NCBI GenBank assembly: GCA_021018995.1
Contig: CM037595.1
Span: forward strand, 92,206,491-92,270,490
Direction of reading: 5' to 3'
DNA from: Chloranthus sessilifolius
Lineage: Eukaryota > Streptophyta > Magnoliopsida > Chloranthales > Chloranthaceae
Length of the DNA: 64,000 nt
Made by a program: the position numbers and the translations under genes. Positions within the stretch are counted from its first letter, which is position 1, and every line of letters starts with the position of its first letter. The notes below the pieces were generated by a model. It ran no database searches, had not been told where the DNA came from, and saw only the letters and a list, made by a program, of their open reading frames with translations. Positions 15,680 to 63,273 of the stretch are shown in pieces.

Positions 15680-18228
15680 TGTGACAGCCCAGATTTTGGC
15701 ACACCGAAACCCGTGCCATCAGCACGATCATCTTGACCGTGCCCCTTAGCTAAGCACGGAACATTGGCATATCAAGCATAAAATGAAACAATAAAGGAGC
15801 TGCGGAATTTAAATCTATATTAAGTAATTCTCCAAAAGACAGGTCTACCCTCATGCCTCTGCATGAATGGAGAACCGATCCGAACCATTGATGATAGCAA
15901 TCATCACGGATGGTTCGCCCCAAAAGAATAATCCCAACTCAATATATACATGGTTTAACCAAAACAAGGCTTGACATACCAAGCCGTACCAATCTCTCTC
16001 AAAAAGCCCTCAAAGTGGCACAACGGAGTCCTCTAGAAGAAGTCCTCAGGAGGTGGCTCCAACTCTTCGCCGGCCGCAAGGTCCGACTCACCGGGGTCAG
16101 CGTCTCCTGAAGCCTCGGCAGCTGCTAGTAGTGGGCCTGCGAAGTATAGTCTATAGGGTGAGCTACATCCTAGCTCAATAGGGAACAAAACACAGTTGAA
16201 CATATAATTTATTACTCACATATATTCCATGATATGCCATGCATGATGTGTCTATGCAGTTATTGATGAAAACAGTTAAAAGTATTACATTTTACTGGTA
16301 GTTTACTCGTGTCTTTTATTTACTCATGAATGATGCTGAAAAGGCCTAAGCAAAACTTAAACTTTCAACTTAAGTAATCCCCGAGCAATATAGCATCGAG
16401 CCCCGATGAGATACCCTTCATCGTCATCTATATAGACACTTTTAACGTATTCCCTGGGAATACCATATAGTACCCAAGCCCCTTTCCCCTGGGGATTGGT
16501 GGCGGGGTTTCACTTGTCTCAAATCAACACCCCTGGGGTGTGCTTGCTATGTACGGATAAGCCTCCGCACTGGCCTACGGTTTTGCCGCCGTATCGGTCA
16601 CGGATATCCTGCCGTGTCAGTCGTGGATATCCCGCCACGTCGGTGGGGTACCCTATCAAACCTCAAATAACAAAAATATCGGTGCTTTACATATAGTTAT
16701 TCACCGTGTAAGTGTGCTATCTTATATCAGTTAGGCCCTATCAAACATGATTCAATCTTGGATACATCCCTGGGATGTATCCATTTACTTGCATCACACC
16801 TGATGCCCTTATCTCTTCACTTTATCATCCCCTGGGGATGGCTCATTATAATTACTCTTATGGATGTCACACACACACACTCTTTTCACAATTCTTAAGC
16901 AATAAAACATTTGAATTGAATTCTATATCACTACATACATGCTCTTGTAAAATAAAGTACATGTTCAAGGTGTTCCCTACCTCAAGTCTTCATTTGATCA
17001 ATGCATCAAGGTCTCACGTGGCTCCTTGTGCACTAGCTTACACGTACCACCTATGGTACCACATAACAGGTGAAACACATCACTAAGGATGCAATAAAGA
17101 AGGTCCAAGACCTTCCAAGAATCTTAAAGTCAAACTCAGAAGTTAACATTATTTATCTCAGTCGATTAATCGAACTCCAAAATCGATTAATCGAATCTGA
17201 TTCGATTAATCGATTTCCAAAATCGATTAATCGAAAGTCAATATCGATTAATCGATTCTCAAATCGATTAATCGAGATTTTCATTCGATTAATCGAATCC
17301 TAATTCGATTAATCAAAATTCTCTGTTCAGCCAAGTCGATTCTCAATTCGAGTAATCGAGTTCCTAAAATCGATTAATCGATCCCAATTCGATTAATCGA
17401 AAATTGAAATCGATTAATCGAAATCCCATTTCGATTAGTCGATTTTCTACAAGTCATTTCCTCCAGCCCCCTGGGGTCCACTGGAGGTTCCCAGTCGATT
17501 AATCGATACCTAAATCGATTAATCGAAATCTAAAGTCGATTAATCGAGCTCCAATTCGATTAATCGAAATCGGGGTCCACTGACTTTTCAACTTCCTGGC
17601 CAATTTCGACTAATCGAAACCCAATTTCGATTAATCGAAATTGTCAGATTCAGCCCCCTTTTGGCTGTTCTTCTCAATCTTTTTCCACACTTTTTCCTCT
17701 ACTTTTCTAAACCATTTACCTATGATTTACACCATTTTCAACTACAATCTAACCTCTACAATCTATGCATTTCATTCACAAAAGTTTACCTTGAATCAAT
17801 CTCAAATTGATTTCAAATCAAGTGGTTGGAAGGCTAGGGTTCCAGCTTTGCTTCTAGCAGATCCCTCGCGTCGAATCCGACGTTTATTGCTCGAATCTCC
17901 CTTCCTCAACTAGCATTTACTCCTTGTATTAATCACCCTCTTTACTCCTCTCTCTCTCTTCTTTACTTCTCTCTCAACAACCAAACTATTGATTTTAGGG
18001 TTATTAAACCCTTTTATCTCTCCCCTAGCTTGTGTGTTGAGCACATGCACCTCAATAGGTGTATGTGACTTCAGATTCACAACACACACCACATGGTTTC
18101 ACAACCATCTCATCTCATTCACTCATCACACTCTACGCTAACTGTCGAACTCCTACTTGGTCAAACCTGTGACCGATCGGGCACGGATCTCGAGGTCATA
18201 GTTTAGCGTGATTTTTCGGGCTATTACA
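15680..18228 (-). repeat. Tekay-like LTR (2549 bp)
   Basis: In element orientation it begins TGTAATAGCCC (18228) and ends GGGCTGTCACA (15680), a TG...CA pair whose first eleven bases are imperfect inverted copies. It is followed directly by the tRNA primer-binding site, so this is the 5' LTR. It contains the palindrome array at 17162-17638 and several short GATATCC inverted words at 16600-16640. The adjacent 18229-18233 (ACCGG) would be the target duplication, whose partner is outside the window. Confidence 0.85.
17162..17638. repeat. Array of 19 TCGATTAATCGA palindromes with ~20-21 bp period
   Basis: Copies start at 17162, 17183, 17202, 17223, 17244, 17264, 17285, 17305, 17348, 17370, 17389, 17410, 17431, 17495, 17515, 17536, 17556, 17606 and 17627; about fifteen are exact. 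Within each run the spacing is 19-22 bases, close to two helical turns, while the 8-9-base spacers differ. A GC-richer interruption (CAGCCCCCTGGGGTCC) splits the array at about 17465. Confidence 0.95.
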
Positions 18229-18235
18229 ACCGGAT

Positions 18236-19377
18236 TCTAGAATGACTCGACATCCTATCTCATCCAATGCCCCAATAATATCAGATTTTTCTTCAGATCA
18301 GGCGCATGCCTAACCTCAGTAAGAGTGCGAACACAACCATCAAACATCTTGATTCTAATCGAACCGATACCCACTGCTTCACATATACTGTCATTCCCCA
18401 TCAAAATCGTCCCACCATTGGCTACCTTATACTGGTCAAACCAATCTCTGTACGGACACATGTGATACGATGCCCCTGAATCTAGGATCCATCTATCATC
18501 AAACTGACTGGAGCTTAACAATGCACACAGTAGGTCTTTACTGAAATCTGACTTAGCAATACTAGCCTGTTGCGAAGTCCCTTCATCACCCTTATTATTA
18601 TTCAATCTCTGCTTACAATATTTGCGAATATGTTCAGATTGCTTACAGAAGTAACAGATAATATCCTTTCTGTCACCCCTAGATTTGGACCTGCTGTTTT
18701 CTCTCGTTGATTTATTATCCCCTCTGAATTTGACTCTTTTACAATCATGGTTTCGACCCCTTTCGCTTAAGAGACTAATCCCTTCAGAGTTAGATTTGGG
18801 CTGTTTTCTTAATTCGTCAGAAAGAAGTGCAGCAGTCATTTCTTCGATGACAATAGTATCTTTACCATAAATTAATGTGGTTACAAGGTGCTCATAAGAT
18901 GGTGGCAATGAGGTGAGCAAGAGTTCACTCAATGGTATCTTCTTCAAGTTTCACCTCAATGCTCAATAGTTCACTAACTATTTTATTAAACGAATTTAAA
19001 TGGTCATGAATACGCGTACTAGCCTTCATACGAAGGGTGTAGAGTTGCTTCTTCATGAAGAGTCGGTTGGACAACGACTTTGTCATGTAGAGAGATTCCA
19101 TCTTCTTCCACAGATCCACGATCGTCCTCTCGTGAAGAACGTTGTACAGAACTTCATCGAGCAAGCACAATCCGATAGTGCTTACGACCCTCTTATTAAT
19201 AGAATTCCACTCTTCATCGGATATCTCTGCCTTTTTCCCCATCTCTTTTTCAAGTAGGGCATCATCAATGCCTTGTTGGACAAGGAGATCTGTGACCTTG
19301 ACTTGCCACAAAGCGAAGTTATTCTTTCCAGAAAACTTTTCCATCTCAAATCGTGCATTCGAGACCTTCATCGCCAT
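18236..19377 (-). pseudogene. gag: Copia gag and protease start
   Basis: The likely start is the ATG at 19377 (MAMKVSNARFEMEKFSGKNN), not upstream codons that overlap the primer-binding site. The gag domain contains LWQVKVTDLLVQQGID and LWKKMESLYMTKSLSNRLF. A frameshift lies near 18935 (LEEDTIE to KIPLSELLLTSLPPSYEHL). The zinc knuckle is CYFCKQSEHIRKYC, lacking the usual glycine before its histidine. The protease active site is WILDSGASYHMC. A second shift near 18265 leads into LGALDEIGCR. The product would form the particle and cleave the polyprotein; this copy cannot. Confidence 0.8.
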
Positions 19378-19406
19378 TGTAGCATAAACCTCTCTCTGAT
19401 ACCATT

Positions 19407-20196
19407 TGTTAGGAATTCTACCCACTCTACGAACTCCCTATCGCAATGAATGCGGAAAAATAAGAAGATTCAGGTAAAAATTAATTACACGCACAACACA
19501 AAGATTTACATGGTTCACCCAATCGAGGGCTACGTCCACAAGAGTATATGCATTATTTTTATTGAAAGTTTACAGCACACACACTCTTCTCTCTAGTGCA
19601 AACTCAATCAAGATCTAATACGATCTTCAACAGCAAATCCGTTGTTAAATCAAAGACGCGGTCCTTCAAATAATAGAGAAGAGATCTACCGAAATATAAT
19701 CACGATTCCGATACAAGAACGGCTTCAATCGGATCTTCAATCCCCAAGCTATTCTTCAATACTTTTTCTCTCAAAGTATTCTCACAGATTTCTCACCATG
19801 AAACTTTCACCAAACACTCTCTTTCCCTCGAGAAGAGACTTTCTACTAATAGGCTCCAAGCTCCTTTTGGATACGTAACTCTCAAATCTCCTAAGAGTTG
19901 CAAGTATTCAAAACACTTTCAATAATAGTCTCCTAATAACTTAGGAAACCTTGGCTAAAGTGAACTTCCCGAAATTAGACACTTATTTAAAACTTGCGGA
20001 TCTATATCCGCCCAACAGTCAATTGAGTGACTTTCCAACCTCAATCGATTGACACCGGTCAACAGTCAATCTGCGGATCTGCATCCGCTCATCAGTCAAT
20101 CGATTGACTTTCCAGTCTCAATCGATTGACACCAATAGTTGACTTCACAAACTCAATCGATTGATATCGGTGGTTGGGATTAAACCTTATTCAACA
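19407..20196 (-). repeat. Copia LTR (790 bp) with CAATCGATTG pairs
   Basis: In element orientation it begins TGTTGAATAAGG and ends TCCTAACA. Between 20020 and 20165 it contains CAATCGATTG or one-step variants at 20020, 20042, 20097, 20119, 20133 and 20154, in pairs 21-22 bases apart, plus two GCGGAT...ATCCGC hairpin words. The primer-binding site abuts it at 19404. Confidence 0.85.
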
Positions 20197-20600
20197 TCTG
20201 ATACCATGTTAAAATTATAAACTAAAGAAAAAAAACTAGAAGAAGATGAGCGAGATAAGAAGATAGAAAGATAGAATAGACAAATTTCAAATTGCATTGT
20301 TTACAATGCGCTATAATACTCAGATAAGAAAGTGTATAAATAAGATTACAAATATAACCATGAGCGGTTACAATTGGTTTAGATAACTACGGTTGGTTGA
20401 GATAACTGATTTGTAGTAGTTATCAAATAAGGTACAGGCGATACCAACTATTTTAAAGAGGCGATATCGACTGTTTAAAAGAGGCAATATCAACTATTTA
20501 AAGAGGCGATATCACCTGTTTAAAAAGGCGATACCGCCTGTTTAAAGAGGCGATTTTTAATTTTTAATTTTTTTAAGAGGTGATATTGCCTTTTTTTTGT
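20197..20600 (-). repeat. Second copia-type LTR edge with 22-23-bp minisatellite
   Basis: Immediately after the copia LTR the text TCTGATACCA followed by TGTTAAAATT looks like the primer-site/LTR junction of another minus-strand copia element. It continues with LTR-like sequence including TATAAATA. From about 20431 to 20545 the unit AGGCGATATCAACTATTTAA recurs five to six times with variants. The far LTR end is unclear; no coding region of this element is seen. Confidence 0.5.
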
Positions 20601-23280: not shown

Positions 23281-23282
23281 GG

Positions 23283-24196: not shown

Positions 24197-24241
<45 letters not shown>

Positions 24242-25116: not shown

Positions 25117-25352
25117 TAAGCTTAAACGCGTTCTTTTTTAAAAGCAGCTCAGTTGTTATCTTTCCTCCTTTGTAAGGCTTGAGGTCGTAAGTTCTATACT
25201 CTTTCTTTCCTATTTATCGCTCAATGTGATTGTTTTGTTATATGGGATTCACTCCCTAAGTGCTGCCAAGGTGTCAACTTGGGTATCGGTCCAGGAAGGA
25301 CTGATACGAATTGGCCGATACCGAGTTGACTCGGTAATTTTTTAAATATATA

Positions 25353-25640
25353 CAAGGTATCAAAAATTGGTCAATACCGATACGTATTAGTTTTCGGCCA
25401 AACCGATACGTATTGGTTTTCGGCCAAACCGATACATATTGGTCTGATACGTATTGGTATCCCGTATCGGTATCGCCAATACGTATTAGCCGATATGGGC
25501 TCGTATTGGCCAATAGTTTCGGTTTCAACCAAGATTTTAGTTTTTTATTTTTTAATTGGCCGATACATATCAGTATTGGCCGATTCGTATCTGCCTCGGG
25601 CAAACCGACACCCGAGACCGATATCGGTTTTGATACCTTG
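25353..25640. mobile_element. Fold-back element of GATACGTATC family
   Basis: CAAGGTATCAAAA at the left is exactly inverted as TTTTGATACCTTG at the right. The interior consists largely of CCGATACGTATTGG-type words in both orientations. The flanks are TA repeats, so the TSD cannot be judged, and it sits inside the larger 25268-26665 element. Confidence 0.7.
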
Positions 25641-25680
<40 letters not shown>

Positions 25681-25863
25681 CGTGTGAGAGGTGTCGACGA
25701 ATACGAGTTCCATATCAACCGATACCTGATACGTATCGGCCAATATCGGCCCGCATCGGCCAATACCAATACCAAATACTAAGTTTATAACTGAGATGTA
25801 TCGGCAATGATACATATCGATTTGCCGAAAGACCGATATGTATCGTCAATACGTATTGGTATT

Positions 25864-26636
25864 TAGGGCTCTCAATCGGTTGGACCAGCACAAATTTCGG
25901 CCGCACTTGGCCCCAAAAAAGTGGTATTTTTTATTAAGCAAACTTAGCCCGATATTCAAACCGTGATAAACATGTTGCAACCCGGATAAATACGGGTTGG
26001 GCTTGGGTTAAGTGTCGCAACATCCGGCCCGCACCCGGCCCAAATATTATATATATATTTATCTATTCAAAATTTTAATTTTTTTATATAGTTAAATATG
26101 ATTTACTTAAATGCCCTGAAATTAAACTATTGAACGGTTTAAACTTGGAGTATTTAAGTCAAAAGCGCAATAATCTTGTACATATATTTTTTTATTAGAG
26201 AAATTAGATGGCTTAATTTATTTTCAAACAATCATGCATAGCTTTTTAACTATAGAACTTGGATGACTTGTTAATAAATTTTCAAACAACAATTGTCTGT
26301 TATAATCATTGTGCAACAAATTAAAATAAAATATTTGAATAAAAGCATATACCTGAGGCTCTATAATAATAATATAATTATTTAATTAAATTTTTAACCT
26401 TCTTCAAACTTTTATTAAAAAAAAACAATCAAACTCAATTTTATTAGAAAAAATAGCCCAATCAAATTTTATTAAAAAAAAAACAGTAGGAAAAAACTGA
26501 AAACACCCAAGTCTGGCCCCTCGGGCCGGCTTGACATCGTACATCGAGTTAGTTTGAAAAATTGGGAACCCGGCTCGGGTAGGTTAGGGCCGGATTGAAC
26601 CCCAACCCGGCCCTAATCTGGCCCATTGAGAGCCCT
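25864..26636. mobile_element. TAGGGCTCTC-ended Mutator-like non-autonomous element
   Basis: The left end TAGGGCTCTCAATCGG is inverted at the right end CCCATTGAGAGCCCT. Flanks ATTGGTATT (25855-25863) and ATCGGTATT (26637-26645) form a 9-bp TSD with one mismatch. The 773-base interior is AT-rich with GGCCCGCACCCGGCCC words near the ends and has no transposase. Its target was a GATACGTATC element, so it is younger than that element. Confidence 0.75.
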
Positions 26637-26696
26637 ATCGGTATTGGCCGATATTTGAGACCTTGAGTGCAGCTCCTGAACTATATTACTCTTTAA

Positions 26697-27044
26697 TAGG
26701 GTTGCAACATAGCAGAGCTAGCTCAACAGCTCGGCTTGGCCCAAAAAAGAGAGCTTTTGCTCTATTAAGCTCGGCTCGAGAGCCAGGGTAGAGCTTTTTA
26801 TTTATAGCTTTATTGAAGTAGAGCCGAGTTGACGAGCTAAAGCTGAACTTGTAAAGCTTGACTCGGCTCAGTCCGGCTATGCTTGATTAATACTATATAA
26901 TAATTTTATATAAAATAAAATATAATAAATATAATTTTAATTTTTCTTTTACTTTTTCTTCCTTATAATAAGATTAATCTAATTGTTACTTTATAATGGA
27001 TAAATATGTAATAAATATATAATTCTTATAATCGTCTATTGAAG

Positions 27045-27102
<58 letters not shown>

Positions 27103-27532
27103 CTATTAAAGCTCTTTCTTATCTCAATGAATAACAACTAGCATGATAATTGACCAACCAATCAATACCTATGATCGACACTTATGCTCTTAATCAATAT
27201 TTAGCACATTAAATTTAAACACTTTTTTCTCTTATCGATCCATTAAATCCAAAAGAACTAAAGGATTAAAAGATATTAGAGCTTTTATTTTTTTAATTTT
27301 ATTAAAGCTTTCATCTATTAAAAAAAAGATAATGTTTAAAACAACATTAGGAAAAATAATTTATAATAGAATTTATTTAGTTCAAAGCCCGGCTCGGCCT
27401 GACTTGAGCTCAATAGAGCTCCAACTTTTTAGGCCCGAAGGGGCTAGACCTAGTTCCAGCTCGGTTCGTATTAGGTAGAGCCAAGCAAAAGCTGACCCAA
27501 GCTCGAGCTCGGCCCAGCTCGATTGCAGCCCT
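26697..27532. mobile_element. TAGGGTTGCAAC-ended Mutator-like non-autonomous element
   Basis: The left end TAGGGTTGCAAC and right end GATTGCAGCCCT are inverted. Flanks ACTCTTTAA (26688-26696) and ACTCTATGA (27533-27541) match at seven of nine positions. Both arms are made of repeated GAGCTCGGCTCG-like words. The centre is AT-rich and holds a long TC microsatellite at about 27048-27098. No coding region. Confidence 0.7.
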
Positions 27533-27875
27533 ACTCTATGATATGTAAGGCAAATCCGGGTTGTCTATGAATGCTAAAAAGTATGGCATCATTAAAAAAA
27601 ACATATTTTAATTCCTTTGAACATGTAATTAATATTTAGGTTAGTGTAATCCTTCTAAGTTTTAACCTGATTTAATGGGTCAGCCGTCTAAACCTGTCAA
27701 AAGCTGATTCTCTGAGATTTATGGGGACCCTAAAATGCTAAGAAGTCTTCTTTTGACATAACTAGTAGGATACAAAAGATTTTTGACAAGCTTGATAATA
27801 TTGGAATTGTCATACCCCATTAATCCATTGGAAAAATGGAATTGAGGACATGGGTTCAAACCCACACTCTAGATC

Positions 27876-28130
27876 ATGGATCAAAATGCTGAAAAACCAA
27901 TATGTATTGTCCGAGCTCAAAATTGATATATATCGGACAATACGTACTTGTACCGAACAATACCGAACGATACATTCAATGTATCGTTCGGCTATATACA
28001 TATATATTAACGATATGATACATTCAATGTACCGTATCGTTCACTACCAATACCGATGCATATCGTCCACTATCGATACCGATACGTATCATCCGATACG
28101 TATCGGTATCAGACGAAATTTTGATCCATG
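27876..28130. mobile_element. Fold-back element of GATACGTATC family
   Basis: ATGGATCAAAAT at the left and ATTTTGATCCATG at the right are inverted. Flanks CTCTAGATC (27867-27875) and CTCTAAATC (28131-28139) are a 9-bp TSD with one mismatch. The interior is repeated CGATACGTATCGG and GATACATTCAATGTATCG words, each close to palindromic. Confidence 0.8.
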
Positions 28131-28911
28131 CTCTAAATCTTGTGTCACACACATGATCATAAGTTAGGCCCACATCCTAGGGTTCAGCGGCCCCTCCGGG
28201 GGGTTTAGAGAGAAAATGGACATTTTATTCCATTCATGTTAAAGGGTGAAACCCTCAAAGATATGAGTTGGCCACCCAAGAATTTTATTACTGAAATTTT
28301 TTACCTTTAATATAAGGGAGCCATTACTTGCACACGTTTTTCAAGTGATTGCACCTAATTTAAAAAAAGACTTGGTATTTTAGGGGCATGTGATATATAA
28401 AAATGCAATATGGGCTGTTTGATTTGAAGTTCATGATCAATAAATCTCTTGTGCATAAAATTGAAGCAAGACACGATACTTATCATATGATTTATTGTAG
28501 TCAACTGTTGATTTATATAATAGTCTTTAACTCTTTAATCAAATGATAAAAATTATATTTTGTTCTAATCTTTTGCAATTGTTATCTTTAAATTATGACC
28601 ATCAAATCAATTGCCTTAGATGGTGTTTTCACACAATAGAGGTTGCCAAACTTGTAAGTCTTTTTTTTAAATTCGATGCAATCCGGTACAATTACTTGAA
28701 AAGCGTGCGCAAGTATTGGCTCCCTTAATATAATTTATTCTTTTTTTTTTTTTTTTGTCATTGATCAACCATAAACATGTGCATGTAACACCCCAAATCG
28801 TTCATTTGCAAGCTCTTGCATCACCACGAACTTAGGTATGGGTCAGCGTCTTCTAACCCCAAGCCTCAAAAGTATACTTTCACTTTTTTGCTCATAAATC
28901 TCTGAGCACTC
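28131..28911. other. No gene seen
   Basis: AT-rich sequence with scattered stops. The stretch at 28330-28730 repeats TTGCACACGTTTTTCAAGTGATTGC-like words inverted at about 28690-28720 (CTTGAAAAGCGTGCGCAAG), so it is probably another decayed inverted-repeat element. Confidence 0.5.
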
Positions 28912-29381
28912 ATAGATCAAAATATCGGACGAAACTGATACATATCATCTGATACGTATCATTTTGGAGGGGCAACGATACAATAAAAAGAGTTTTTTTC
29001 AGGTATCCCTTGAAACAGTCAAATTATCGTCCGATACAAGCAAATTATCGTCCATATCGCTCATATCGGACGATAATTTCAAATTATCATCCGATAATTT
29101 GGTGGTTTAACATGGACTCATAATTTGAAATTATCGTCCGATAATTTCAAATCATCGTCCGTATCCCCCGTATAGGACGATAATTTGAAATCATCGGACG
29201 ATAATTTGATCGTTTGATTTTTAGAGTCTTTTTTTGAAAAAAAAGAAAAATATGTATCAAAACGATACAGTCAATGTATCACTGATACATTAAATATATC
29301 GAACGATACGCGATACGTATCGTCCTGGAGGTCAGGACCTTCAGGACGATACGTATCAGAAATCCGATTTTTTGATCCATA
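28912..29381. mobile_element. Fold-back element of GATACGTATC family, long form
   Basis: ATAGATCAAAATAT at the left is imperfectly inverted at the right (TTTTTTGATCCATA). Flanks TGAGCACTC and TAAGCTCTT match at six of nine positions. The interior repeats AAATTATCGTCCGATA and CGATACGTATCG words in both orientations across 470 bases. Confidence 0.65.
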
Positions 29382-29426
29382 TAAGCTCTTCAAAAGCTTG
29401 ACCAGTTGATAAAAAAGAGATTAACC

Positions 29427-29580
29427 CACTACAAAAATAATAAGACTATTATATATTGGCAACCAAAACTGCCGCTATTAACAAAAAACCTTCTTGTTTC
29501 ATTAGCAACAGGACTAATAGCCGCAATTTTTTTATTTATATAAATTTTGGCTACAGCTAAAACACCTTATTTTTGTAGTG
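29427..29580. mobile_element. CACTA MITE with ACC target duplication
   Basis: CACTACAAAAATAATAAG at the left is matched by CTTATTTTTGTAGTG at the right. A perfect 3-bp TSD ACC sits at 29424-29426 and 29581-29583. At 154 bases it is non-autonomous. Interior words (CTGCCGCTATTAAC) are shared with the 127-base copy at 47021-47147. Confidence 0.85.
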
Positions 29581-29627
29581 ACCCGAGTGCCAAGGGCAGC
29601 ACGTGGGTCAATTATGAAATACCAGAC

Positions 29628-29797
29628 AAGGATCAAAATTTCGGCCAAAATGTCCGAAATTTCAATTTCAATCCCCACCGAAACCGAAACGATAACCCAA
29701 AATTTCATAATTTTTGTATGGGGATGAAGATTTCGGTCCAAAATTTCGATTTTGGTCCCCACCGAAACTGAAACGAAATCCAAAATTTTGATCCTTG
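29628..29797. mobile_element. Fold-back element, TTTCGG subfamily
   Basis: AAGGATCAAAATTT is inverted as AAATTTTGATCCTTG. Flanks ATACCAGAC (29619-29627) and ATACAAGCT (29798-29806) match at six of nine positions. The termini belong with the GATACGTATC family, but the interior is made of AAATTTCGGTCC-like words instead. Confidence 0.65.
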
Positions 29798-30164
29798 ATA
29801 CAAGCTCTAAAATTTGGCTTAATTTTTGGAGGGGAGATACAACTTGCACACGATATTTGTACCGTGGCACATGTGTAAAAACAAAGACTTTATTATTGTT
29901 AGAATCTGTGCTGAGTGTAATACCATCTAAGCCGTGTGATTTGAAGATCAGAATGGGAAGATCCTTGAGGCCAAAGATTGGCACGTTATTCGATCTCTAT
30001 CATTTGATTGAGTACACTCAAAGGCCCTCCTCTAATTCAATCGGTGACTCCAACAAATCAGATGATAGAGATAATGTTTTGTGCAAATTTTTAGATTCAA
30101 AGATATGCTCATCATGCTCTTCAAAGTATATGACCCAGATGGTGTTCTATGTGCCATATAACCC

Positions 30165-30425
30165 AAGGTATAAAAAATTGGCCGATACCGATACGTATTG
30201 GCACCGATACATATCGGTCCTCCAACTCGGTATCGGTATCCGTATCGACACATATGTATTGGTTTGACCCAAGATATGATTATTTTTTTCCCCGTATCGT
30301 CTAATATGTATCAGTTTGAGCCGAACATTGATTTTTTTTTTTTAAGAGCAGATCCATATCGGTATCGGCCGATTCGATTTGTATCGGTCCTTCATGGACA
30401 GATACCGAAACCTTTTGAGTCCTTG
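30165..30425. mobile_element. Fold-back element of GATACGTATC family with perfect 9-bp TSD
   Basis: The 261-base element begins AAGGTATAAAAAATTGG and ends CCTTTTGAGTCCTTG, imperfectly inverted. It is flanked by identical ATATAACCC at 30156-30164 and 30426-30434. The interior is CCGATACGTATTGG-type words. The exact 9-bp TSD is the clearest sign that the family moves by a Mutator-type transposase, supplied in trans since none is encoded. Confidence 0.85.
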
Positions 30426-30434
30426 ATATAACCC

Positions 30435-31400: not shown

Positions 31401-31412
31401 ACCGCAAATTGA

Positions 31413-31900: not shown

Positions 31901-31901
31901 C

Positions 31902-41514: not shown

Positions 41515-42131
41515 TGAGCGGAAGTTTACAAACTAATCAATAATCTCACGATGAACGATCAAATAAAAACATAAAATAGAAGAAAATCAATCACAAACAT
41601 ATAAGAGACAATATTTATGTGGTTCAACAATATGTTTATGTCCACAGGCAGTGATAATCCACTATATTAATAATCACACAAGAATACAAGAACACTCAAG
41701 TCTCTCCAAAGCTCTCCTCAAAACCCTTAAATAGGGTTTCCAACGCTTTACAATGATATCTTCTTTTTTTTTTTTATAAAACTTTACAATAATTTCTCTC
41801 TCTCACAAAGACTCTTTATTCGTCAATGAGCTTTCCCTTTATATAGAAGTCTCGAATCTTACTTTTAACCCAAGAGAAACTGCTCAAAAACAAAATTTGT
41901 ACGTAACTTAGACGTCATGGGTCATCGCGGGTCGCTTGAGCGAGAACCAAAATCTCTCGAGTGACTAAAACCCGTAAGAATTCCCTATGAACCGTGCCCC
42001 GATCGCTCAAGTGAGAACCAAACTCACTCGAGCGACTTACACCCGTAAATTCGGCCTTGTTTAGTGTTCACCGTGCTCGAGCTGATTTGGTTATTGCTCG
42101 AGCAACTTACAAGTTAGAGTCTCAATTAACA
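41515..42131 (-). repeat. Copia 3' LTR with CTCGAG palindrome pairs
   Basis: In element orientation it starts TGTTAATTGAGACTC and ends CTTCCGCTCA. Three pairs of CGCTCGAGCG-like palindromes have centres at 41937/41958, 42008/42029 and 42078/42099, each 21 bases apart. It contains the short TATATAAAGGGAAAGC promoter-like word on the minus strand at about 41830-41848. Confidence 0.85.
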
Positions 42132-46159: not shown

Positions 46160-46724
46160 TGTGCGGAAGCTCACAAATAAACCAACGATCTCACGATGAA
46201 CGATCAAATATGTACGTAAAATAAAAGAAAATCAATCATAAACACACAAGCAACAATATTACGTGGTTCGACAATATGCTTACATCCACAGGCAGTGATA
46301 ATCCACTATATTAATGATTACACAAGAATACAAGAACACTCAAGCCTTACCAAAACTCTCCTCAAAACCCTTAGATAGGTTTTCCAAAGCTTTACAATGA
46401 TCTCTTTCTCACAAAGACTCTTTTTTCATCCATGAGCTTTCCCTTTATATAGAAGTCTCAAATCTTCTAACCCAAGAGAAATTGCTCAAAAATGGAATTT
46501 ACACATAACTTAGACGTCACGGGTCATCGCGAGTCACTCGAGCGAGCGCTAGAGTGACTAAAACCTGTAAATTTTCCCTTTGAACTGTGCCCCGGTCACT
46601 TGAGCGAGAACCAAACTCGCTCGAGCGACTTACACCCATAAGTTCGGCCTTGTTTGGTGTTCACCTCGCTTGAGCAGATTTGGCTCCCACTCGAGCAACT
46701 CACAAGTTAGAGCCTCAATTAATA
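46160..46724 (-). repeat. Copia 5' LTR
   Basis: Matches the 3' LTR through GATCTCACGATGAACGATCA and CACAGGCAGTGATAATCCAC and shares the CTCGAG palindrome pairs. The LTR start in element orientation has decayed from TGTTAATTGAG to TATTAATTGAG. Confidence 0.85.
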
Positions 46725-48483
46725 TATATACACACTTGACTCACACGTGACTCAAGCGGGTGACTGTCAAATCACATCATGGTCAATGATTGACCGCGAT
46801 CTGACTGTCACCTGCTCGAGTCACTTAGTGACTCGAGCAAGTCGTCATTTGTAACAACCCGAACTTTCATGCGAAAAAATTTAGAATATCAGGTCGTTAA
46901 TTTCGTGACATGAACATCCAAAACATCTAATCCTAAGTTTGATGACAACATCTTTAAAAAATGAGTCTTTTTTTATTATTATTAATTGATAACTCATGCG
47001 AAAATAAAAATATCTAAAAGCACTAAAAAAAATAAGACCATTTGCGGCAGTTATTAACAAAAAAAACTATTAAAGACTATTAACTGCAGTTTTTTTGTTA
47101 ATAGCGACAGTTTTTGGCTGCCACTAATAGTCTTATTTTTTGTAGTGAAGATATTTCTTTTCATACGAGTAATAGTATAAACTGTAATGACTAAAAATTT
47201 CATGCGAAAAAATTTAGAATATCGGGCCGCTAATTTCGTGACTTGAGTTTGGAAGATATCAAATTCGAAGTTTAATGGCAACATCCTTAAAAAAATATGA
47301 GTCTTTTTTTTTTAATATTGATTTATCATAACTCATACGAAAATGAGAATATCCAAAAAGATGTGTCTTTTAATAAGAGTAATATTATTTATCATACAAA
47401 ACAAACATCTAACTATCCATTTAACCATCTACACATATGGTCTTGTCTATTTACGACAAAGTATTAATCGTGTGTCTCATAACCCTAGTATCATTCATTA
47501 ATGAAAAAATTGAGGCATTAATTGATGTCATCAAAATAGTATCCCCTAATATCCATAAGGAGAAGAGCGTGAATCCTACAGGTAGAAATCTTTCGGTTGG
47601 GCTTCCGCTTCCTCAGGAAAATATTCTGCATCCTCATCATTAGCTTTTCTGGTCTCTGGAAGCTTAGGGTTAATATGATCTGTGACACACCAAGTGTCGG
47701 GGTAAGCACAAAATATCCACGGTGCTTAGTAGGAAAGTATTAATTACCCTTCATATCTTAAAACATTTAACCAATAAGCATGCATATAATAATTTTTATT
47801 CGACTAACATAATAACAATCTTAAGATAGAAAATTTACGAAGAAATATAATCATTCTTGTGAAAGCAGTCAATTAATAATCATGAAATTGATACTTATGA
47901 GAAATTATACTGCTATTATTTTATTCATTATATTCAATGAAACATGCACATGAACAGTTATCTTATCTTGGCGTCACATGTCTTGAAATTCTTATGTGGC
48001 TTAAATTTAACTTAAAATATTCTCTGCACATAAATAGGTGTCAGAGCTCTAATACTTATATATACTGATGAGAATCCTGTCCATCGTCGCTCGTGGATAA
48101 TTTTCTTGATTAGCCGTAGCCCCTGCTAAGTGAGGTGGCTCGTGCTTGGTCCGTGTCTCGTCTTGTCATGGTGGAATCCTTTAAATATCATAAATTATTC
48201 ATGCATAGAGTTGATCGCCTTCTTAACGTATAAATAATAATAGTGCTTGTCTTGTCTTGCAATAAATTCATGTCATGTCTTAGGGTACAATAATAATAGC
48301 ATTTGTCTTGTCTTGTCATAAATTCATGTAAGATCTTTTCTTATTTTTTCATGTACATTTAATCATGTCTTGAAATTCTTTGGACTTATTAAAGACTATT
48401 TAATGTCTTACATTTCTTGCTTAATAATCATATGTGGATAGCCATGATCTAATAGTGTTATCAATCACATCGAACTCGGTGTT
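46725..48483. repeat. Older LTR-like sequence with an internal duplication and a CACTA MITE
   Basis: TGTAACAACCCGAAC at 46852 looks like a gypsy LTR edge. A roughly 150-base segment beginning TTTCATGCGAAAAAATTTAG occurs at 46866 and again at 47199, with a CACTA MITE between the copies. TGTGACACACCAAGTGTCGG at 47682 resembles another LTR edge. Wording such as CTTGTCTTGTC continues beyond the Athila insertion at 61600-61660, so the Athila element probably landed in this repeat. A TGACTCGAGC/GCTCGAGTCA inverted motif lies at 46740-46840. Confidence 0.5.
47021..47147. mobile_element. CACTA MITE with AAG target duplication
   Basis: CACTAAAAAAAATAAGAC at the left and GTCTTATTTTTTGTAGTG at the right are inverted. 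AAG occurs at 47018-47020 and 47148-47150. The interior contains GCGGCAGTTATTAAC and its inverse, the same words as the copy at 29427-29580. Confidence 0.85.
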
Positions 48484-49851
48484 TGGTCAGTTTTAAAGTG
48501 AACCCTTCGAAGTGCACAAGTGTGATTGTAGCAAGGCAAGAATACGAGTGTCGTACTCATAGGGAAGCGTGCAATTCAATTAATCTTCAAAGGATGAAAC
48601 AACCTAAGAAAGTACCAAATGCGAGATATGTTTGCTATGATTTCCCACTACACAATGCAATAATAATAAAAATTAAAATAAAGCTATGCAAGGACGAACT
48701 TTGATAAATAAAGCAACAATGATGAGATGATCAAGGATTCTGCTAACCCTAGATATGTAACTTTTTCTACTAACAATCCCAACAATACAATGTCAAATTA
48801 TTTTATCATTTTATCACAAGCAAAATGAATCGATAAAAATGCGATTATTGACTTGGCATACAATATTCTAACACTATAATGTATTCAATCACGATATGAA
48901 TTATGCAAAAGGCATAACGTATCTCAAATATGAAATCACAACAGTAAGATCCAATTGTACGGGATCCTACATCGGTCTACAAAATCATCTAGGTGGAATA
49001 AATCTTTTGTTGTCGCCAATAACCAAGATTGACGGCTATAAACGAGCATTCAATGATAAGACAATAAGTACACACTTAAGGCCGTACGATTCAATAATGA
49101 TAACAAGAAATTGTAGGATTGCAAATAAATTAGTTACTCATTTAGGGGTTGCTTCCTCCTTGAACGAGAGTTTTAGCCCCTCATCCTCGATCCGCACACA
49201 CAGTACAAATCCGAAACCATCCCAAAAATGCTCTTTCATTTATCAATCGTTTGATCTTTTTTTTTGGAAAAGATCAAAACCTTACAAAGCTTTTTATCCT
49301 AATTACAAACTATCACTGAAAATGCTAAAGAAAGATTGGAAAAAACCCTAAACATTGCATCCTTTTTATAGGGTGCAGATAGAAAAACTTCCATAAAATG
49401 CTCAATCGATTGATTTTCAAATTTCAATCGATTGACTTCAAAATTGAATTTTGGCGGAATCCTTTGAATTTTGAATTCAATCGATTGAATTACATATCTC
49501 AATCGATTGAATTAGTTGAATTCAAATTTAAGAGGGAAAAAGTTGTCATCCAAATTAATCGATTGATTCCTAAGATTCAATCGATTGATCGATGATGGCA
49601 TGCGGCCTCCTCATTTTCATAGACATGGCTGGATCAATTTGTTCTCTTCACAGATTTCGATGCTTTTGCTGGCTCCATGGTCCAATGCTCTCGTGTAGCC
49701 CTTAATTAAGCTCAATTATGCTCCTGCAAGATCCAACCGTCAAGAACTCTTGAAACCACTAAAACTACACAACAAGCATCAGATCGCTTTCATCGGGTGG
49801 CTAAGTGTCGGTATTAGGATGCGAAATATAGTAATATCTCGGCACAGATCA
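48484..49851 (-). repeat. Athila-like 3' LTR
   Basis: 1368 bases, starting TGATCTGTGCCGAG in element orientation and ending AAACTGACCA. Contains six CAATCGATTG or near copies at 49403-49590, in pairs about 22 bases apart (49403/49425, 49478/49500). Confidence 0.9.
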
Positions 49852-52265
49852 CACCCCCAAACCTACACTTTGCTAGTCCTTGAGCAAAGAGAATGAAAAA
49901 TAAAGTAGTGGCCTAAATAAATTAAATGTCACTTTCGTAGGGAACACGATTGCATTTAGCATATGCAATAAGCCTTTAAACCCTTAGGCGATCCCTAGTG
50001 GAGGAGTTGTGTCTCCTGAAGGTTTTCAGCGAAGGTACCTACAAACTTCAAAGCCTATAAATTTCAACATTAATTTTCATAATCATTAATTGTATACAAC
50101 CTACGAAGCTTTAATAACAAAATACACAACCATGCTAATCTTATCATTGCCTATTCAGATTAATTTAATGTTTTGTTTTTCCGATGAATCTTTCATTCAT
50201 TTCTAGAGTGTTCTGTGTGCTTAACCAATGCTAAAATCCTTCCATCAGGGAACAAGCCCAAACAAGGAATCTTTGGATCCCATGTCTCGACTTAATCCTC
50301 ACCTTAGATATGCACTCAAAATGAAAGTGTTCCAATGAATGGTTTGCTTTTTCACTCATATGTAAGATGGAATTTTCACTCTAATTAAAAGATTTCACTT
50401 GAAATAAGAAATACGGTGCATCAAAGAATTTTAAAAGTAATCTCATAAGGAATGATGTTTATATTCTAAGCACATATTACAAAGCACCATAAGCATTGCA
50501 TCATCACTCTCCACAAGGCATTTACCAGCAAAGATTGGATCACAAATGTCTTTTTCAGGGTTATAATGGGGCTTGGGTGAAGGTTATGAAAGAAAGGAGA
50601 AGTTGGACTCAAATTCTTTGAGAAACCGAAAAAAGGAACACATTTGACTTTTTCATTTTCACTCTTTCTTTTTCGAAGTTTTCATAATTTTTCTTTCTCT
50701 ACTTTCTCCTTCCTTTAATTCCTTCTTTTTCTTTTAGATACCACCACATGTTTTTTTTTTTTTTTTCAAAAATATATATATATTTTTTTCTTTTCACCCT
50801 TTTTCATTAATATTTCTGCCCTATGCTCCCAATGTTCACCACTATCATACCTCTCTGCGTACTCTCTTTTCATTTACTTCTTATCCATCTTTCTCGGTTT
50901 TTCAGAGATTGGCGGTTAAGGCTTAATTTTTAGCGATAGTGTCCGAGAATGGTTAGTCTAGCTTAACAAGAAGTATTTTAAGGCAAAAAATTTCAACAAA
51001 ACTCAAAACGGGTGCAAAAAGGTAAATCAATATAAGGTGGGGCATTTTAGGTTCAAGCGAGCTAAAATTGGCCTTTGATCATTTCCTCAAAGGTGGTAAT
51101 GATGTCTATTTGTTTTGAGTTCAAACGTAATGTGTTTTAGTTTGATGATACAACGATGCAAAGCAACAAGCTAATGAAAAATATATGAGATTTAACAAGT
51201 AAGCACGAATTCCAAAGATCCTCCGAATTTATTAAAACACTCATCAAGAACAAGGAATTGGCTCTAAAGCTTACGGGTCTTTAGTCTCCACTAGAATCCT
51301 AGGATTCAAAGTTTTAGACTAATTCCTTGACTTCGAGACTCAAGCATGGTAATGTGTAAAAATTTCTAGTTATGAACTACAGGGTCATCTTTAAAACTTT
51401 GCATTGAACTAATAATCATAAGTAATTATAATCTTAACATGGCATGGTACTTTTCCACAAAACTTCTAGGTATCAACAAATTAATGATCATGAAAACTCA
51501 TTGAATTTCGAAAAATAGGCTTCACTTTACTCAGTTAATCGATTGACTTCTCACATCAATCGATTGACTTACACCTGTTTGCAGTCATTCTCGAACCAAA
51601 GTTTCCAGTCAATCGATTGATTTATTAAAATCAATCGATTGAGGGTATTCGTTTACAAAAGTCTTCTTGGTCAATGATTACCAGTCAATCGATTGAATTC
51701 CTTAATTCAATCGATTGACTGACACAATCTTTCAATAATTTCGAGAACAAACAAACTCCTTTTTTTTTAACTGCTGAAATTAAATGATGTCACCTGCTTC
51801 TCACCCCCAAACCTGATGTGTCTAATGTCCTCATTGGTACCCCCAAACCTATGTAAAGCATACCACAACCCAAAGGTAGACCAGGTGAAAAATATTGTGC
51901 CCCATAAGATCAAAACATGTAGGTTATGAATTGACAATTAATACCAATGAGCAAATCGAAACAAATAATACAAAATTAATAACCTAGCCAAACACACTAA
52001 ACATAAAAACTTCTCATTTTTCATTATTTTATTTTATTTTATTTATTTATTATTATTATTATAATATATATATATATATACATATATATATTATTTATTA
52101 TTTATTTTTTTTCAAAAAGCAAGTCAATTCAATTGAGTTGCCTCCCAGTAAGCGTTGAATTTAAATGTCGACAACTCGACCATTCAATTTTCAATTTACA
52201 AGATCAATAAGATCTGTTGATTCAATCAACAGTTAGGTCATTGGCTCGAACATTGGCTTGAGGTG
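49852..52265 (-). other. Athila-like 3' untranslated region
   Basis: Lies between integrase and the 3' LTR and has no long open frame on the minus strand. Holds three pairs of CAATCGATTG (51536/51557, 51610/51632, 51686/51708), repeated CACCCCCAAACCT words at 49852, 51807 and 51839, and T-rich and TATA low-complexity runs at 50745-50790 and 52030-52110. Confidence 0.8.
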
Positions 52266-53560: not shown

Positions 53561-53563
53561 TTG

Positions 53564-54293: not shown

Positions 54294-54298
54294 GCAAC

Positions 54299-55871: not shown

Positions 55872-55876
55872 GCAAC

Positions 55877-59424: not shown

Positions 59425-60123
59425 ACTAGGATCAAAGAACACAAAGATAACTACAATTCATACTCAATCGATTGATTTGTGAAAAATCGATCAATTGATA
59501 CAAAACAGAGAATAGTACTCAAACAATTCACCTTATTACTCAATCGATTGAAAATGAAAAATCAATCGATTGAGATCGTAAGCATTGTCCGGGCAGAACA
59601 GATAACTCCAACTAGATTGGTAACAGTTTGGACTTCTTCAATCAATTGAGACAGACCAATCTATTGAAGAAAATTCGAAAGCAAAAATTGATGGACTCAA
59701 TTCTCTACTTGGTCAATCGATTGAACTTAGACAGTCAATCGATTGAAATGACTCAGAGGGCAGAGTTAACCAATTCGGGACAATTCAGAATCAATCGATT
59801 GATTCAGAGAAATCAATCGGTTGACTGACAACAATGAATGATTTTCAGATTCCGAACAGAGAAGGATTTTTACCACTACAATAGAAATAATTTTATTTTT
59901 TTTACAAAAATGCTCTTTTTTTTTTTTCACAGTTCACTTTGATCGATTGATTTGTAAAAATCAATCAATTGAGGTAAAACAATGATTAAAGTGTGACACA
60001 AATCTTTGCTTACCATTCAATCGATTGAATATGGAAATCAATCGGTTGAGGGCAAAACAGAGAACAAAAATCTCCAAAAATTAACAAAATTTCGATGCCT
60101 CCCCGACAACGGCGTCAAAAACT
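59425..60123 (-). other. Athila-like 5' leader with palindrome pairs and primer site
   Basis: The primer-binding site is at 60117-60100. Between 59465 and 60050 there are about fourteen CAATCGATTG or one-step variants, mostly in pairs about 21-23 bases apart (for example 59541/59563, 59714/59736, 59792/59814, 60018/60039). No conserved open frame. Confidence 0.85.
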
Positions 60124-61501
60124 TGGTCGGTTTTAAAGTGAACCCTTGCAAGTGTACAAGTGTGATTGTAGCAAGGCAAGAATACGAGTGTCATATCCAC
60201 AGGGAAGTGTGCAATTCTGTTAATCTTCAAAGGATGAAAATACCTAAGGAAGTACCAAAGGTGAGATATGTTTGTTATGGTTTACCACTACACAATGCAA
60301 TAATAATAAAAATTAAAATAAAGCTATGCAAGGATGAACTCTGACAAATAAAGCAACGATGGTAAGATGATCAAGGATTCCACTAACCCTAGATGTGTAA
60401 CTTTTTTTACTAACAATCCCAACAATTCAATATCAAATTATTTTACCATCATTTTACCACATGCAAAACGAATCGATTAAAATGCGATTATTGACTCGAC
60501 ATATAATATCTTAACACTATGACGCCTTCAATCACGACATGAATCATGCGAAAGGCATAACGTATCTCAAATACAAAATCACAACAGTCAGATCCAATCA
60601 TACGACATCCTACATCGGTCTACGAGATCAATCTAGGTGGAATAACTCTTTTATTGTCGTCGATAATCAAGATCGACGACTATAAATGAGTATTCAATGA
60701 TAAGACAATAAGTACACACTTAAAGTCGTACGATTTAATAATGATAACAAGAAATTCTAGGATTGCAAATAAATTAGTTACTCATCTAGGGGTCGCTTCC
60801 TCCTAGAACGAGAGTTTTAGCCGCACATCCTCGATCCGCACACAAAGTACAAATTTGAAGTCATTCCAAAAATGCTCTTTTATTTATCAACCCTTTGATC
60901 TTCTTTTTTTAGAAAAGATCAGAACCTTACAAAGCTTTTTATCCTAATTACAAACTATCACTAAAAATGCTAAAGAAAGCTTGGAAAAAACCCTAAGAAA
61001 TTCTACCAAGGAAAGCCCCCAAACCCTAAATGTAGCATCCTTTTTATAAAATGCTCAATCGATTGATTTTCAAATTTCAATCGATTGACTTCAAAATTGA
61101 ATTTTGGCAAAATCCTTTGAATTCTGAATTCAATCGATTGAATTATAGATTTCAATCGATTGACTTAGGTCGAATTCAAATTCAAGAGGGAAAAAGCTAT
61201 CATCCAGGTCAATCGATTGATTCCTAAGATTCAATCGATTGATGATGCCATGTGGCCTCCTCATTTCCATAGAAATGGTTTGATCAATTTGTTCTCTTCA
61301 CAGGTTTTGGTGCCTCCGCTGGCTCCATGATCCAATGCTCCCATGTAGCCCTTAATTAATCTCAATTATGCTCCTGTAAGATCCAACGGTCAAGAACACC
61401 TGAAACCATTAAAACTACACAACAACCGTCATATAGCTTTCATCGGGTGGTTAAGTGCCGGTATAAAGGTGCGAAATATAGTAATATTTCGACACAGATC
61501 A
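60124..61501 (-). repeat. Athila-like 5' LTR
   Basis: 1378 bases, colinear with the 3' LTR, with six CAATCGATTG copies at about 61060-61245. It contains a 30-base segment near 61000 (AAGAAATTCTACCAAGGAAAG) absent from the other LTR. Confidence 0.9.
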
Positions 61502-62314
61502 ATGCTTTGAGACAATCACGAAGAAGCTACTGCCAATGGTGTCCCATACCACCATGGCTTTCACAACTCACGATGAGCCCACGACAATCGTCCAATGTGA
61601 TTCGCAATAATACTAAATTATGACGAAGGCGTATCTTGTCTTGTTATCATATTTTCTTAAATTTTCTATACATTCTTCAACAATCATATCATGTAATATC
61701 TTAACCAATGAAACATAAGTATTAAACACGCACACTCACCTTGACATAAGTATTTGATATTAAGTCCAATTTCAATCACTACAATATAAATGTCAAACAT
61801 AGACTATACAAAATAAATATTTGATTGGATCGAATATATAAAAATATATGTTTCATACATTTAACTAAATGATTAATGAATCCGAATCAAACACTCCTAA
61901 TGCAATAAGAATATAATAAATATTCATAACTTATCAGAACAGTCATGCCTCATAGGAAAATGAGGCGTACATGTGCATATAATAATTTTGAAATTACAAT
62001 GCAATATGACTGAATTGTATGATCTAATTAGTCAAAAATTTAGGTTTTATAATTCCTATAAGAACCTGACGAATTCAACTGTCAGAATAAAGATCACTAA
62101 AAGTTGTGAGGGGTTGACCATAATGAAATGTTCGTAATTTTACTCATATGGGTGTCTGACCACAGGTCAAAAGTTCATTCACAGCACACTTAGACAAAAA
62201 TCAGAAGCAAAAATTTACTGTGCTAATTTTAAAGTGGGCATCTTGGGATCAATTTTTGAGATAACTAGAGAATGATCTAGCTTTAGGTGTAAGAATAGTT
62301 TTGGTAGAGGGCAC
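61502..62314. other. No gene; probable continuation of the older repeat split by the Athila element
   Basis: AT-rich, no open frame of note. Shares CTTGTCTTGT wording with 48150-48320 on the other side of the Athila insertion. Confidence 0.4.
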
Positions 62315-63273
62315 TGAAAATTTCATCTATCTACGGAATTGATTGGCTATTTGATTAATTCTAATTAATCTAAAGATTACACAATAACAGCAATCACCAC
62401 AACGCGATATTTACGTGAAAACCCAATCACTAGGAAAAATCACGGATTGAAGTCCACAAACCAAATCCACTATGAAATAAAAATGATTATAAGGAGTTTC
62501 AAATGATATACCGAACACATGCACATGCTCTATCAAACCCCCATGCAACCCAACTTCCCATTGCGGCTCGCCTCTATAGTTTCCATATTTGAATGCTCTC
62601 CTTTATCGTTGATGAGCGCACAACGATCCACCTTAAGATCAACAGGGCCATCAATCAAACACCCTAATCTTTAGGGCACAACTCACTTGAGCAAGTTAAA
62701 AAGATGATAGTGAAGAAAGGAAGGAAGCACCTTTTGAATAACAACTATTTTTGCAAATCAATGGATTCCAAAAAGGTGAGAAGCTGGGATTCTAGGGTTT
62801 TGTCTCAAGGAGGAAGAAAGCTTACCCTTGCTTGCTTCACCTTCCCTCCTATTTTCAAGACCCTTTTAACAAAATCCTAAAACCCCTCAAAAGACCAAAA
62901 CCAGGAAAAGACTAAAAAGCCCATTTTCCATAAAAGTGATGATGACTGTCTCGAGGAACCACAACTCGCTATGATTCAAGTGACAGCGAGCTGTGACCAC
63001 AACTCGTTGTGAATACCACAACATTTCACTGTGATAAATATCACAACTCGCTGTGAACAGAAAGAAATCCCGCAGCAACAGCTCGCTGTGAACATCACTT
63101 CTAGTCATTTAAAACATATTTTGAAGGAAGGTCTTTAAGGTTTAATAAATAGGTAAGGATGAATGACTGATAGTCTTGTTACCCAAGGTAAATTCCATCC
63201 ATCTTGGCACACACATTTCCTAAAGGAGATCGACACAGATTTTGGAGTAGAATGCGACACACAGGATCTAACA
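62315..63273 (-). repeat. Sirevirus-like copia 3' LTR
   Basis: In element orientation it starts TGTTAGATCCTGTG at 63273, immediately after a purine tract. The other edge, TGAAAATTTC at 62315 on the plus strand, is a guess based on a TG start. It contains typical LTR wording (CACGGATTGAAGTCC, CAATCACCACAACG) and a cluster of TCACAACTCGCTGTGA-like palindromes at 62959-63092. Confidence 0.6.

Follow-up and report, generated by a model that had tools for sequence, protein, structure and literature searches.

Do retrotransposon families that carry different regulatory words keep the same distance between those words, and what would such an arrangement serve? The question is raised by a 64 kb stretch of the Chloranthus sessilifolius genome (contig CM037595.1, positions 92206491-92270490; assembly size 2.17 Gb), referred to here as the window, which holds nested long terminal repeat (LTR) retrotransposons, all the elements studied being on the minus strand. 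A preliminary description of the window had proposed that its unrelated LTR families carry different palindromes at a spacing near two helical turns, and that no such element had been described. In the current analysis this observation is confirmed in part and its interpretation supported in part: the arrays and their geometry stand, one of the words (TCGCTCGAGCGA) is weak, and the views that the words are unrelated and that there is no prior description are not supported. The feature is real, widespread and conserved, and is a variant of known palindromic LTR boxes that may have a regulatory function. The lineage names Tekay and Athila are labels from the first reading of the sequence and not from phylogeny; the two copia elements are referred to as copiaA and copiaB.

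Words and steps of the palindromes in the window

The three words of the window are 12-mers with TC at the start and GA at the end, their half-sites being TCGATT, TCAATC and TCGCTC. Exact copies number 15 for TCGATTAATCGA and 27 for TCAATCGATTGA, and each word is absent from six Markov shuffles. The array of TCGATTAATCGA described in the Tekay LTR at 19-22 bp has been recovered (Table 1). The shorter word CAATCGATTG, described from a copia LTR and from the Athila LTRs, leader and 3' region, is found there as well; all its 27 occurrences are embedded in TCAATCGATTGA and are mostly paired as 12 bp plus a 10-bp spacer, that is, at 22 bp. As the elements are on the minus strand, the Athila leader corresponds to 59.4-60.05 kb and the 3' region of that element to 51.5 kb. 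The TCGCTCGAGCGA family is weak. The three 21-bp pairs of CGCTCGAGCG reported from a copia LTR are present at 41932-42105, where each site has 1-4 mismatches; the single exact copy of CGCTCGAGCG is at 46618, in the 5' LTR cluster of copiaB. Two of the three pairs have the common spacer GAACCAAA(A/C) and are therefore ascribed to duplication.

The steps within the Athila pairs are mostly 22 bp (a few are 21 or 23 bp, and one poor pair is at 18 bp), and one pair follows another at about 75-78 bp, a series that is interrupted in the leader. The series of steps is 22, 53, 22, 56 or 57, 22 in the LTRs and 21, 53, 22, 54, 22 in the 3' region. On randomising positions within each cluster, the observed spacing is reached in 0 of 20,000 trials for Tekay, with P=0.0008 for the Athila leader and 0.035-0.037 for the three Athila clusters of six sites. 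When clusters of any 12-bp palindrome (three or more alike within 600 bp) are scanned for, those of the window are recovered except in copiaB, together with two TACGTA clusters, and ten shuffles return none.

The proposed spacing of about two turns across LTR families holds mainly for the TCRNNN words and not for the CGATACGTATCG class, where the steps are 14 and 26 bp both in the window and in the genome sample described below. The steps of the Sirevirus-like cluster (25.3-34.6 kb) are 14, 16, 26 and 36 bp. The 20-22-bp rule is mainly a property of the TCRNNN class. Positions 25309-30375 and 34431-34585 hold a dense mix of CGATACGTATCG, TATCGGCCGATA and TTTCGGCCGAAA words (at most two mismatches) at steps of 14 and 26 bp, a class also met in the sampled stretches L035 and L044.

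Helical phasing over longer distances is weak when a single period is imposed on all clusters. At a fixed period of 10.5 bp coherence is significant for Tekay (P=0.0005) and for the Athila 3' region (P=0.023), two clusters out of six. With the period left free five of the six are coherent (P 0-0.028; the 5' LTR, 0.07), the best periods differing from 10.1 to 11.1 bp. The geometry that is kept is the step to the neighbour, rather than a demonstrated common lattice. Extension of the sites past 12 bp is seen in 5 of the 27 exact TCAATCGATTGA sites of the window, which is not above chance, whereas 19 of 35 TCGATTAATCGA sites extend by a single base; the latter word may really be 14 bp long.

The clusters of two families lie upstream of a TATA sequence. 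In sense orientation the Athila cluster is followed by TATAAAAAG, a match to TATAWA, after 6 bp in the 5' LTR and about 31 bp in the 3' LTR. Past TATAAAAAG, in the presumed R-U5, the Athila LTRs have no exact site and one copy with one mismatch (49243, 3' LTR). In L032, a relative of Athila, TATATATA immediately adjoins the proximal site. The copiaB clusters are about 85 bp upstream of a TATAWA common to both LTRs, and the 5' LTR has a further TATAWA upstream of its cluster.

Recurrence in the genome and conservation of the words

The pattern of two TCAATCGATTGA words separated by 2-30 bp is found as 22,663 pairs in the assembly, and the reversed pattern is not found at all. Among 50 unique places listed, which are the first on contig C1 and not a random draw, some being near-copies of one another, 35 are exactly 22 bp apart and 41 are at 21-23 bp. 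The 35 ten-base spacers of the 22-bp places comprise 28 different sequences up to strand, and are diverse yet not fully independent. The same pattern has no match in viral contigs, where a further pattern scan gave one match at a spacing of 25 bp, and occurs in 23 contigs of a prokaryote collection, at 22 bp in two of them. Methylomonas and relatives (L007, L008, L010, L014, L015, L019, L021, L023 and L024) have TCAATCGATTGA pairs at a distance of 27 bp, which presumably belong to a bacterial regulatory site of no relation to these arrays. Protein searches aimed at arrays in other plants, with two open reading frames (ORFs) that run through the arrays, gave no match.

The genome itself has been sampled by 25 stretches of 10 kb (250 kb) at regular positions over twelve contigs. 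By the rule of at least three palindromes, clusters occur in six of the first 20 stretches and in none of three shuffles; L030, L032, L037 and L048 have TC...GA words, and L035 and L044 have words of the CGATACGTATCG / TTTCGGCCGAAA class. Words new relative to the window are TCGATCGATCGA (L030, L037) and TCGACCGGTCGA (L032), and an array of TCGATTAATCGA is present in L049, one of the five stretches that follow these 20. The TCR...YGA class, picked from the window words and then tested on all 25 stretches, has 58 sites that form 45 pairs within 110 bp. Ten of these pairs are at 19-23 bp and come from four stretches (one each from L030 and L042, three from L048 and five from L049, the last being one array). 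Seven permuted classes have 14-34 sites in the same stretches, with four close pairs combined and one at 19-23 bp. When the 64 outer-trinucleotide classes are ranked, TCG is first and TCA second, and together they account for 9 of the 12 pairs at 19-23 bp; the rest come from TAT words in L035 (two) and an ACG word in L043 (one).

Exceptions to the TCR form are TATCG-type pairs in L035 and L044, the ACG word of L043 and, in the window itself, a repeat resembling GGCGATATCGCC at 20.5 kb. This repeat, at 20436-20554, is a 22-bp tandem repeat with imperfect palindromes in a further copia LTR (end and primer-binding site (PBS) at about 20199-20211, minus strand); since its spacers are repeated too, it may be an early-stage array. 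The loci L027 and L028 (about 1148-1760) have near-palindromic TCAATGGATTGA and TCAATAGATTGA paired at 19 bp next to ordinary 22-bp pairs.

The half-sites with the 20-22-bp step are TCGATT, TCAATC, TCGCTC and TCGACC, each one letter off TCGATC, which is itself a fifth; these half-sites do not support the view that the palindromes are unrelated. A mixed pair of TCGATCGATCGA and TCGATTAATCGA at 22 bp has been identified in L030, in which each site is dyad-perfect and the two sites are not mutually complementary.

The preliminary description had suggested that the conservation of palindromes be compared with that of their spacers. The relatives of Tekay (L049) and of Athila (L032) were met by chance in the regular sample, and that of copiaA (L025) was fetched through its motif pair, so that the copiaA comparison is biased. 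Cluster spacers are here the letters between palindromes and within 20 bp of them, the palindromes are defined in the window copy, and palindromes are compared with spacers by Fisher tests. Changes between Tekay and L049 affect 13 of 192 palindrome letters, 94 of 228 in cluster spacers and 366 of 1475 in the rest of the LTR (p=5e-17). The corresponding changes are 4 of 59, 45 of 132 and 344 of 1138 between Athila and L032 (p=3e-5), and 2 of 36, 17 of 61 and 107 of 545 between copiaA and L025 (p=0.008). In the three families 6-7% of the palindrome letters are changed as against 28-41% of the adjoining letters, with similar values when the sites are defined in the other copy. Copy number is labile, whole units being gained or lost (19 vs 15, 6 vs 5 and 5 vs 3 sites in Tekay, Athila and copiaA as compared with their relatives). 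The words and the approximate step are constrained and the spacer letters are much freer. The proposal that the geometry matters is supported by the dominance of the 22-bp step with diverse spacers, by the better conservation of the words and by their recurrence in stretches taken at regular positions.

The two LTRs of one element are expected to drift freely after insertion. In the Athila pair of the window 1 of 72 palindrome letters is changed, as compared with 13 of 115 in the cluster spacers and 145 of 1178 in the rest, and when the same mask is slid along, so low a number of changes is reached at 0.33% of 1196 offsets. The CG sites changed are 0 of 6 inside the palindromes and 29 of 47 outside (p=0.006). 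That the palindromes are almost unchanged and their CGs intact hints at a protection of the Athila palindromes from methylation-driven decay. A second LTR for the Tekay-like LTR of L049, as a replicate of the LTR-pair comparison, was not found in the 15 kb examined.

Explanations for the arrays

Judged from the sequence, the clusters are probably enhancer arrays for cooperating dimeric DNA-binding proteins. They would serve as regulatory arrays, mostly in U3 upstream of the promoter, and each 12-bp palindrome would be a dyad-symmetric site of which a protein dimer reads the half-site TCRNNN. Two dimers, 20-22 bp or two turns apart, would be neighbours on about one face of the helix and cooperate in binding, and the pairs, repeated about every 75 bp, would act as activating enhancer modules. 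Ty1 and Ty3 families would have kept or acquired arrays tuned to related half-sites (TCGATT, TCAATC and TCGCTC here; TCGATC and TCGACC elsewhere), for which one host family of dimeric transcription factors would be the simplest cause. The symmetry of the single site, the mixed pair of L030 and the position in U3 together favour double-stranded DNA bound by dimers. More tentatively, one dimeric protein family could read a TCRNNN code across Ty1 and Ty3 elements, with single-letter shifts of the half-site and the two-turn step kept, as a co-evolving addressing system that is genome-wide. If so, the tens of thousands of pairs would belong to one such system and would not be a set of unrelated regulatory repeats.

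A number of results, including the predicted folding described below, weigh against the reading of the clusters as enhancer arrays. The copiaA LTR is without TATAWA and has a TATA-like stretch, judged by eye, 10-30 bp downstream, and the Tekay array is about 700 bp from the nearest downstream TATAWA. The copiaB LTR pair reveals no protection of its palindromes (14 of 66 letters changed vs 15 of 99; CG sites 7 of 11 vs 14 of 22), with palindrome changes at least as many as in 97% of the slid masks. Loss of CG sites, palindromes vs outside, is mixed among the diverged copies: 7 of 31 vs 20 of 44 (p=0.053) and in reverse 0 of 23 vs 16 of 41 for Tekay, 2 of 5 vs 18 of 31 and 0 of 3 vs 13 of 26 for Athila, and 0 of 2 vs 9 of 20 and 1 of 3 vs 4 of 15 for copiaA. 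The spacing of the copia clusters is not significant on its own (position randomisation, P 0.18-0.63) and comes partly from duplications; as these are visible among the copia pairs, the window alone argues only weakly for the copia families. Four of the six clusters show no phasing when the period is set to 10.5 bp for all. The Tekay spacers share a loose pattern, the 10-bp spacers of Athila are 0.42 alike as compared with 0.34 when shuffled, and those at the places listed have a mean identity of 0.38 vs 0.33 (the maximum of 500 shuffles being 0.35); the spacers are thus not fully random, and part of the regularity may come by duplication. Of the partner matches, 15 of 88 are at 20-22 bp for perfect palindromes and 11 of 146 for sampled non-palindromic words (p=0.03; 137 palindromic and 4,147 non-palindromic words examined); palindromes taken together thus have a modest excess, and it is in the TCR class that the excess is strong. 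Homeodomain, GARP and HD-ZIP proteins have been considered as binders and none adopted, and no transcription factor with these half-sites can be named.

Some of these points would be explained by neutral turnover of minisatellites made by slippage, in which the spacing is merely the repeat period. Duplications are visible in copiaA, copiaB and part of the Athila leader, the spacers are slightly more alike than shuffled ones with a loose common pattern in Tekay, and TRF (Tandem Repeats Finder) reports periods of 20-22. Turnover of this kind predicts that palindromes and spacers are lost equally; in Tekay, Athila and copiaA the repeated unit does not change at one rate, as the values given above reveal, and the copiaB LTR pair shows no difference. 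Neutral turnover alone is therefore very improbable. An element-encoded factor, which like VANC would target the arrays and open or un-silence the copies, the words diverging so that each family serves itself, has more in its favour and is still considered unlikely. The arrays are in non-coding parts (LTR, leader and 3' region), are family-specific and change in copy number, and the palindromic CGs of the window Athila are intact as though unmethylated. An antisense ORF, TRP28, is frequent in Retand elements and may bind DNA, as stated in the available text of PMC11963269. However, one word is common to a Ty1 and a Ty3 element, and the 20 stop-to-stop pieces scanned, which cover part of the elements, contain pol and gag parts and no further DNA-binding domain, although the elements here have no long intact frame in which one would be expected whole.

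The palindromes could also act in RNA or single-stranded DNA, where neighbouring copies would pair as 12-bp stems with loops of about 10 nt. Such stems would have a part in packaging or RNA dimerisation or be precursors of small RNAs, a role that has been proposed for the palindromes of Sireviruses. The sense strand is predicted to fold strongly (z -6.0 for the Athila U3 and -10.5 for Tekay), the first and last dinucleotides are mutually complementary in 8 of 28 distinct listed spacers (about 2 expected), part of the Athila copies are in the leader beside the PBS, and the palindrome-rich LTR regions of Sireviruses are reported as small-RNA hotspots in texts that cite the original work (PMC5311732, PMC10760457). 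A hairpin of two copies requires that the second be the reverse complement of the first and not that a single copy be palindromic, yet every copy is palindromic. The mixed pair of L030 breaks the cross-pairing and keeps the symmetry of each site, and the presumed Athila R-U5 is without an exact site. There is also no clear inner excess of two-base matches (TCAATCGATTGA, inner 6 of 34 and outer 3 of 34; TCGATTAATCGA, 8 of 25 for both). A structural role of this kind is rated as improbable. An insertion preference for palindromes (described in part in PMC6911290) has been rejected, as it concerns target sites and not arrays.

Relation to known systems and features of the window

The earlier statement that no such element had been described overlooks the palindromic motifs of Sirevirus LTRs, known as RM boxes. 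According to the section on these boxes in Bousios et al. 2010 (PMC2829016), the palindromes of 13 Sireviruses differ by family, number 8-32 per element and are clustered in the linker before env and, within the LTR, upstream of the TATA sequence; they are stated to be Sirevirus-specific, to be absent from classic retrotransposons and to have a CGG-CCG core except in Tnd-1, which carries eight copies of ACAATCGATTGT with the core CAATCGATTG. The same core is present in Ty3 and copia elements of the window, and the Athila and copiaB clusters are likewise upstream of TATAWA. The copies number 19 in Tekay, 32 in Athila including variants (two LTRs, leader and 3' region), 5 in the copiaA LTR and 6 and 5 in the copiaB LTRs. 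The window differs in that its half-sites TCGATT, TCAATC and TCGCTC lack the CGG-CCG core, Tnd-1 being an exception of the same kind, and in that two carriers have Ty3-type pol domains (RVT_1, RT_RNaseH, Integrase_H2C2) and are not Sireviruses. Neighbours are 20-22 bp apart here, and that section of PMC2829016 gives no spacing rule. The small-RNA hotspot palindromes of maize Sireviruses (Bousios 2016) likewise belong to a palindrome-rich, variable regulatory region of the LTR, and the citing text of PMC5311732 and PMC10760457 does not mention their spacing or the conservation of words against spacers.

No mention of a 20-22-bp rule or of arrays in Ty3 LTRs was found in the literature searched, which left out most subscription papers, and searches with the literal motif strings give no plant-retrotransposon title among the matches listed (titles only). 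The arrays extend to Ty3 elements a kind of palindromic LTR box that was described in 2010 as specific to Sireviruses. The step of 20-22 bp between 12-bp TCRNNN dyads is a quantitative rule by which the putative binder could be found, with more than 20,000 natural pairs in the genome. A host factor would represent a switch common to several retrotransposon families, and an element-encoded one a retrotransposon counterpart of VANC.

The VANDAL elements are DNA transposons. The targets of their VANC proteins are described in the available text of PMC10398659 as tandem short motifs in non-coding regions of the elements, differing by family and contracting or expanding, and they resemble the present arrays in all these respects. 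The binder is encoded by the element there, whereas none has been identified here among the 20 pieces scanned. The SIRC (short interrupted repeat cassettes) of Arabidopsis are also alike in having short direct repeats with diverse spacers, some palindromic and some resembling parts of ATHILA (PMC10342631). They differ in having 2-8 repeats of 10-29 bp, read as originally a feature of miniature inverted-repeat transposable elements, and the part of PMC10342631 that describes them states no fixed spacing.

The features of the window are collected in Table 1. The domains RVP_2, RVT_1, RT_RNaseH, Integrase_H2C2 and SH3_Tf2-1 of the Tekay element are found in pieces at 10957-14121.

Table 1. Elements and palindrome clusters of the window, with positions counted from its first letter.
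Feature	Position	Strand	Remarks
Tekay 5' LTR (Ty3), ends approximate	15682..18229	-	internal region on left; start TGTAATAGCCC; PBS-like GGTATCAGAG at ~15670
Tekay array, 19 TCGATTAATCGA sites (15 exact, 4 one-mismatch)	17162..17638	-	close neighbours 19-22 bp; related array in L049
copiaA LTR (Ty1/copia), ends approximate	19407..20197	-	PBS just below; Retrotran_gag_2 and Pol_BBD at 18258-19437
copiaA cluster, TCAATCGATTGA at five sites, four of them exact	20019..20164	-	two 22-bp pairs within one 77-bp duplication
copiaB 3' LTR cluster, degenerate TCGCTCGAGCGA, three 21-bp pairs	41932..42105	-	TATA at ~41845; RVT_2 domains
copiaB 5' LTR cluster, five TCGCTCGAGCGA sites (one exact, the others with 1-3 mismatches)	46534..46698	-	two 21-bp pairs
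Athila 3' LTR (Ty3)	48483..49851	-	87.3% identity to 60123-61501
Athila 3' LTR cluster, three 22-bp TCAATCGATTGA pairs	49402..49588	-	five sites exact, one with one mismatch
Athila 3' non-coding region, three pairs at 21, 22 and 22 bp	51535..51718	-	
Athila 5' leader beside PBS, fourteen sites including variants	59464..60049	-	six pairs (four at 22, one at 21, one at 23 bp) and one poor 18-bp pair
Athila 5' LTR	60123..61501	-	PBS-like stretch at ~60101-60118; RT_RNaseH and Integrase_H2C2 pieces within element
Athila 5' LTR cluster, three 22-bp TCAATCGATTGA pairs	61055..61242	-	last site 6 bp before TATAAAAAG

Nesting of the elements is suggested at two places. The copiaA element has apparently entered another copia element at its PBS (20197-20211), and the Tekay-like element is apparently inserted into the copiaA gag (at about 18229). 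The copiaB LTR has, close to its presumed 5' end (46812-46837), the inverted words CTCGAGTCACT and AGTGACTCGAG, with CTCGAG cores 17 bp apart.

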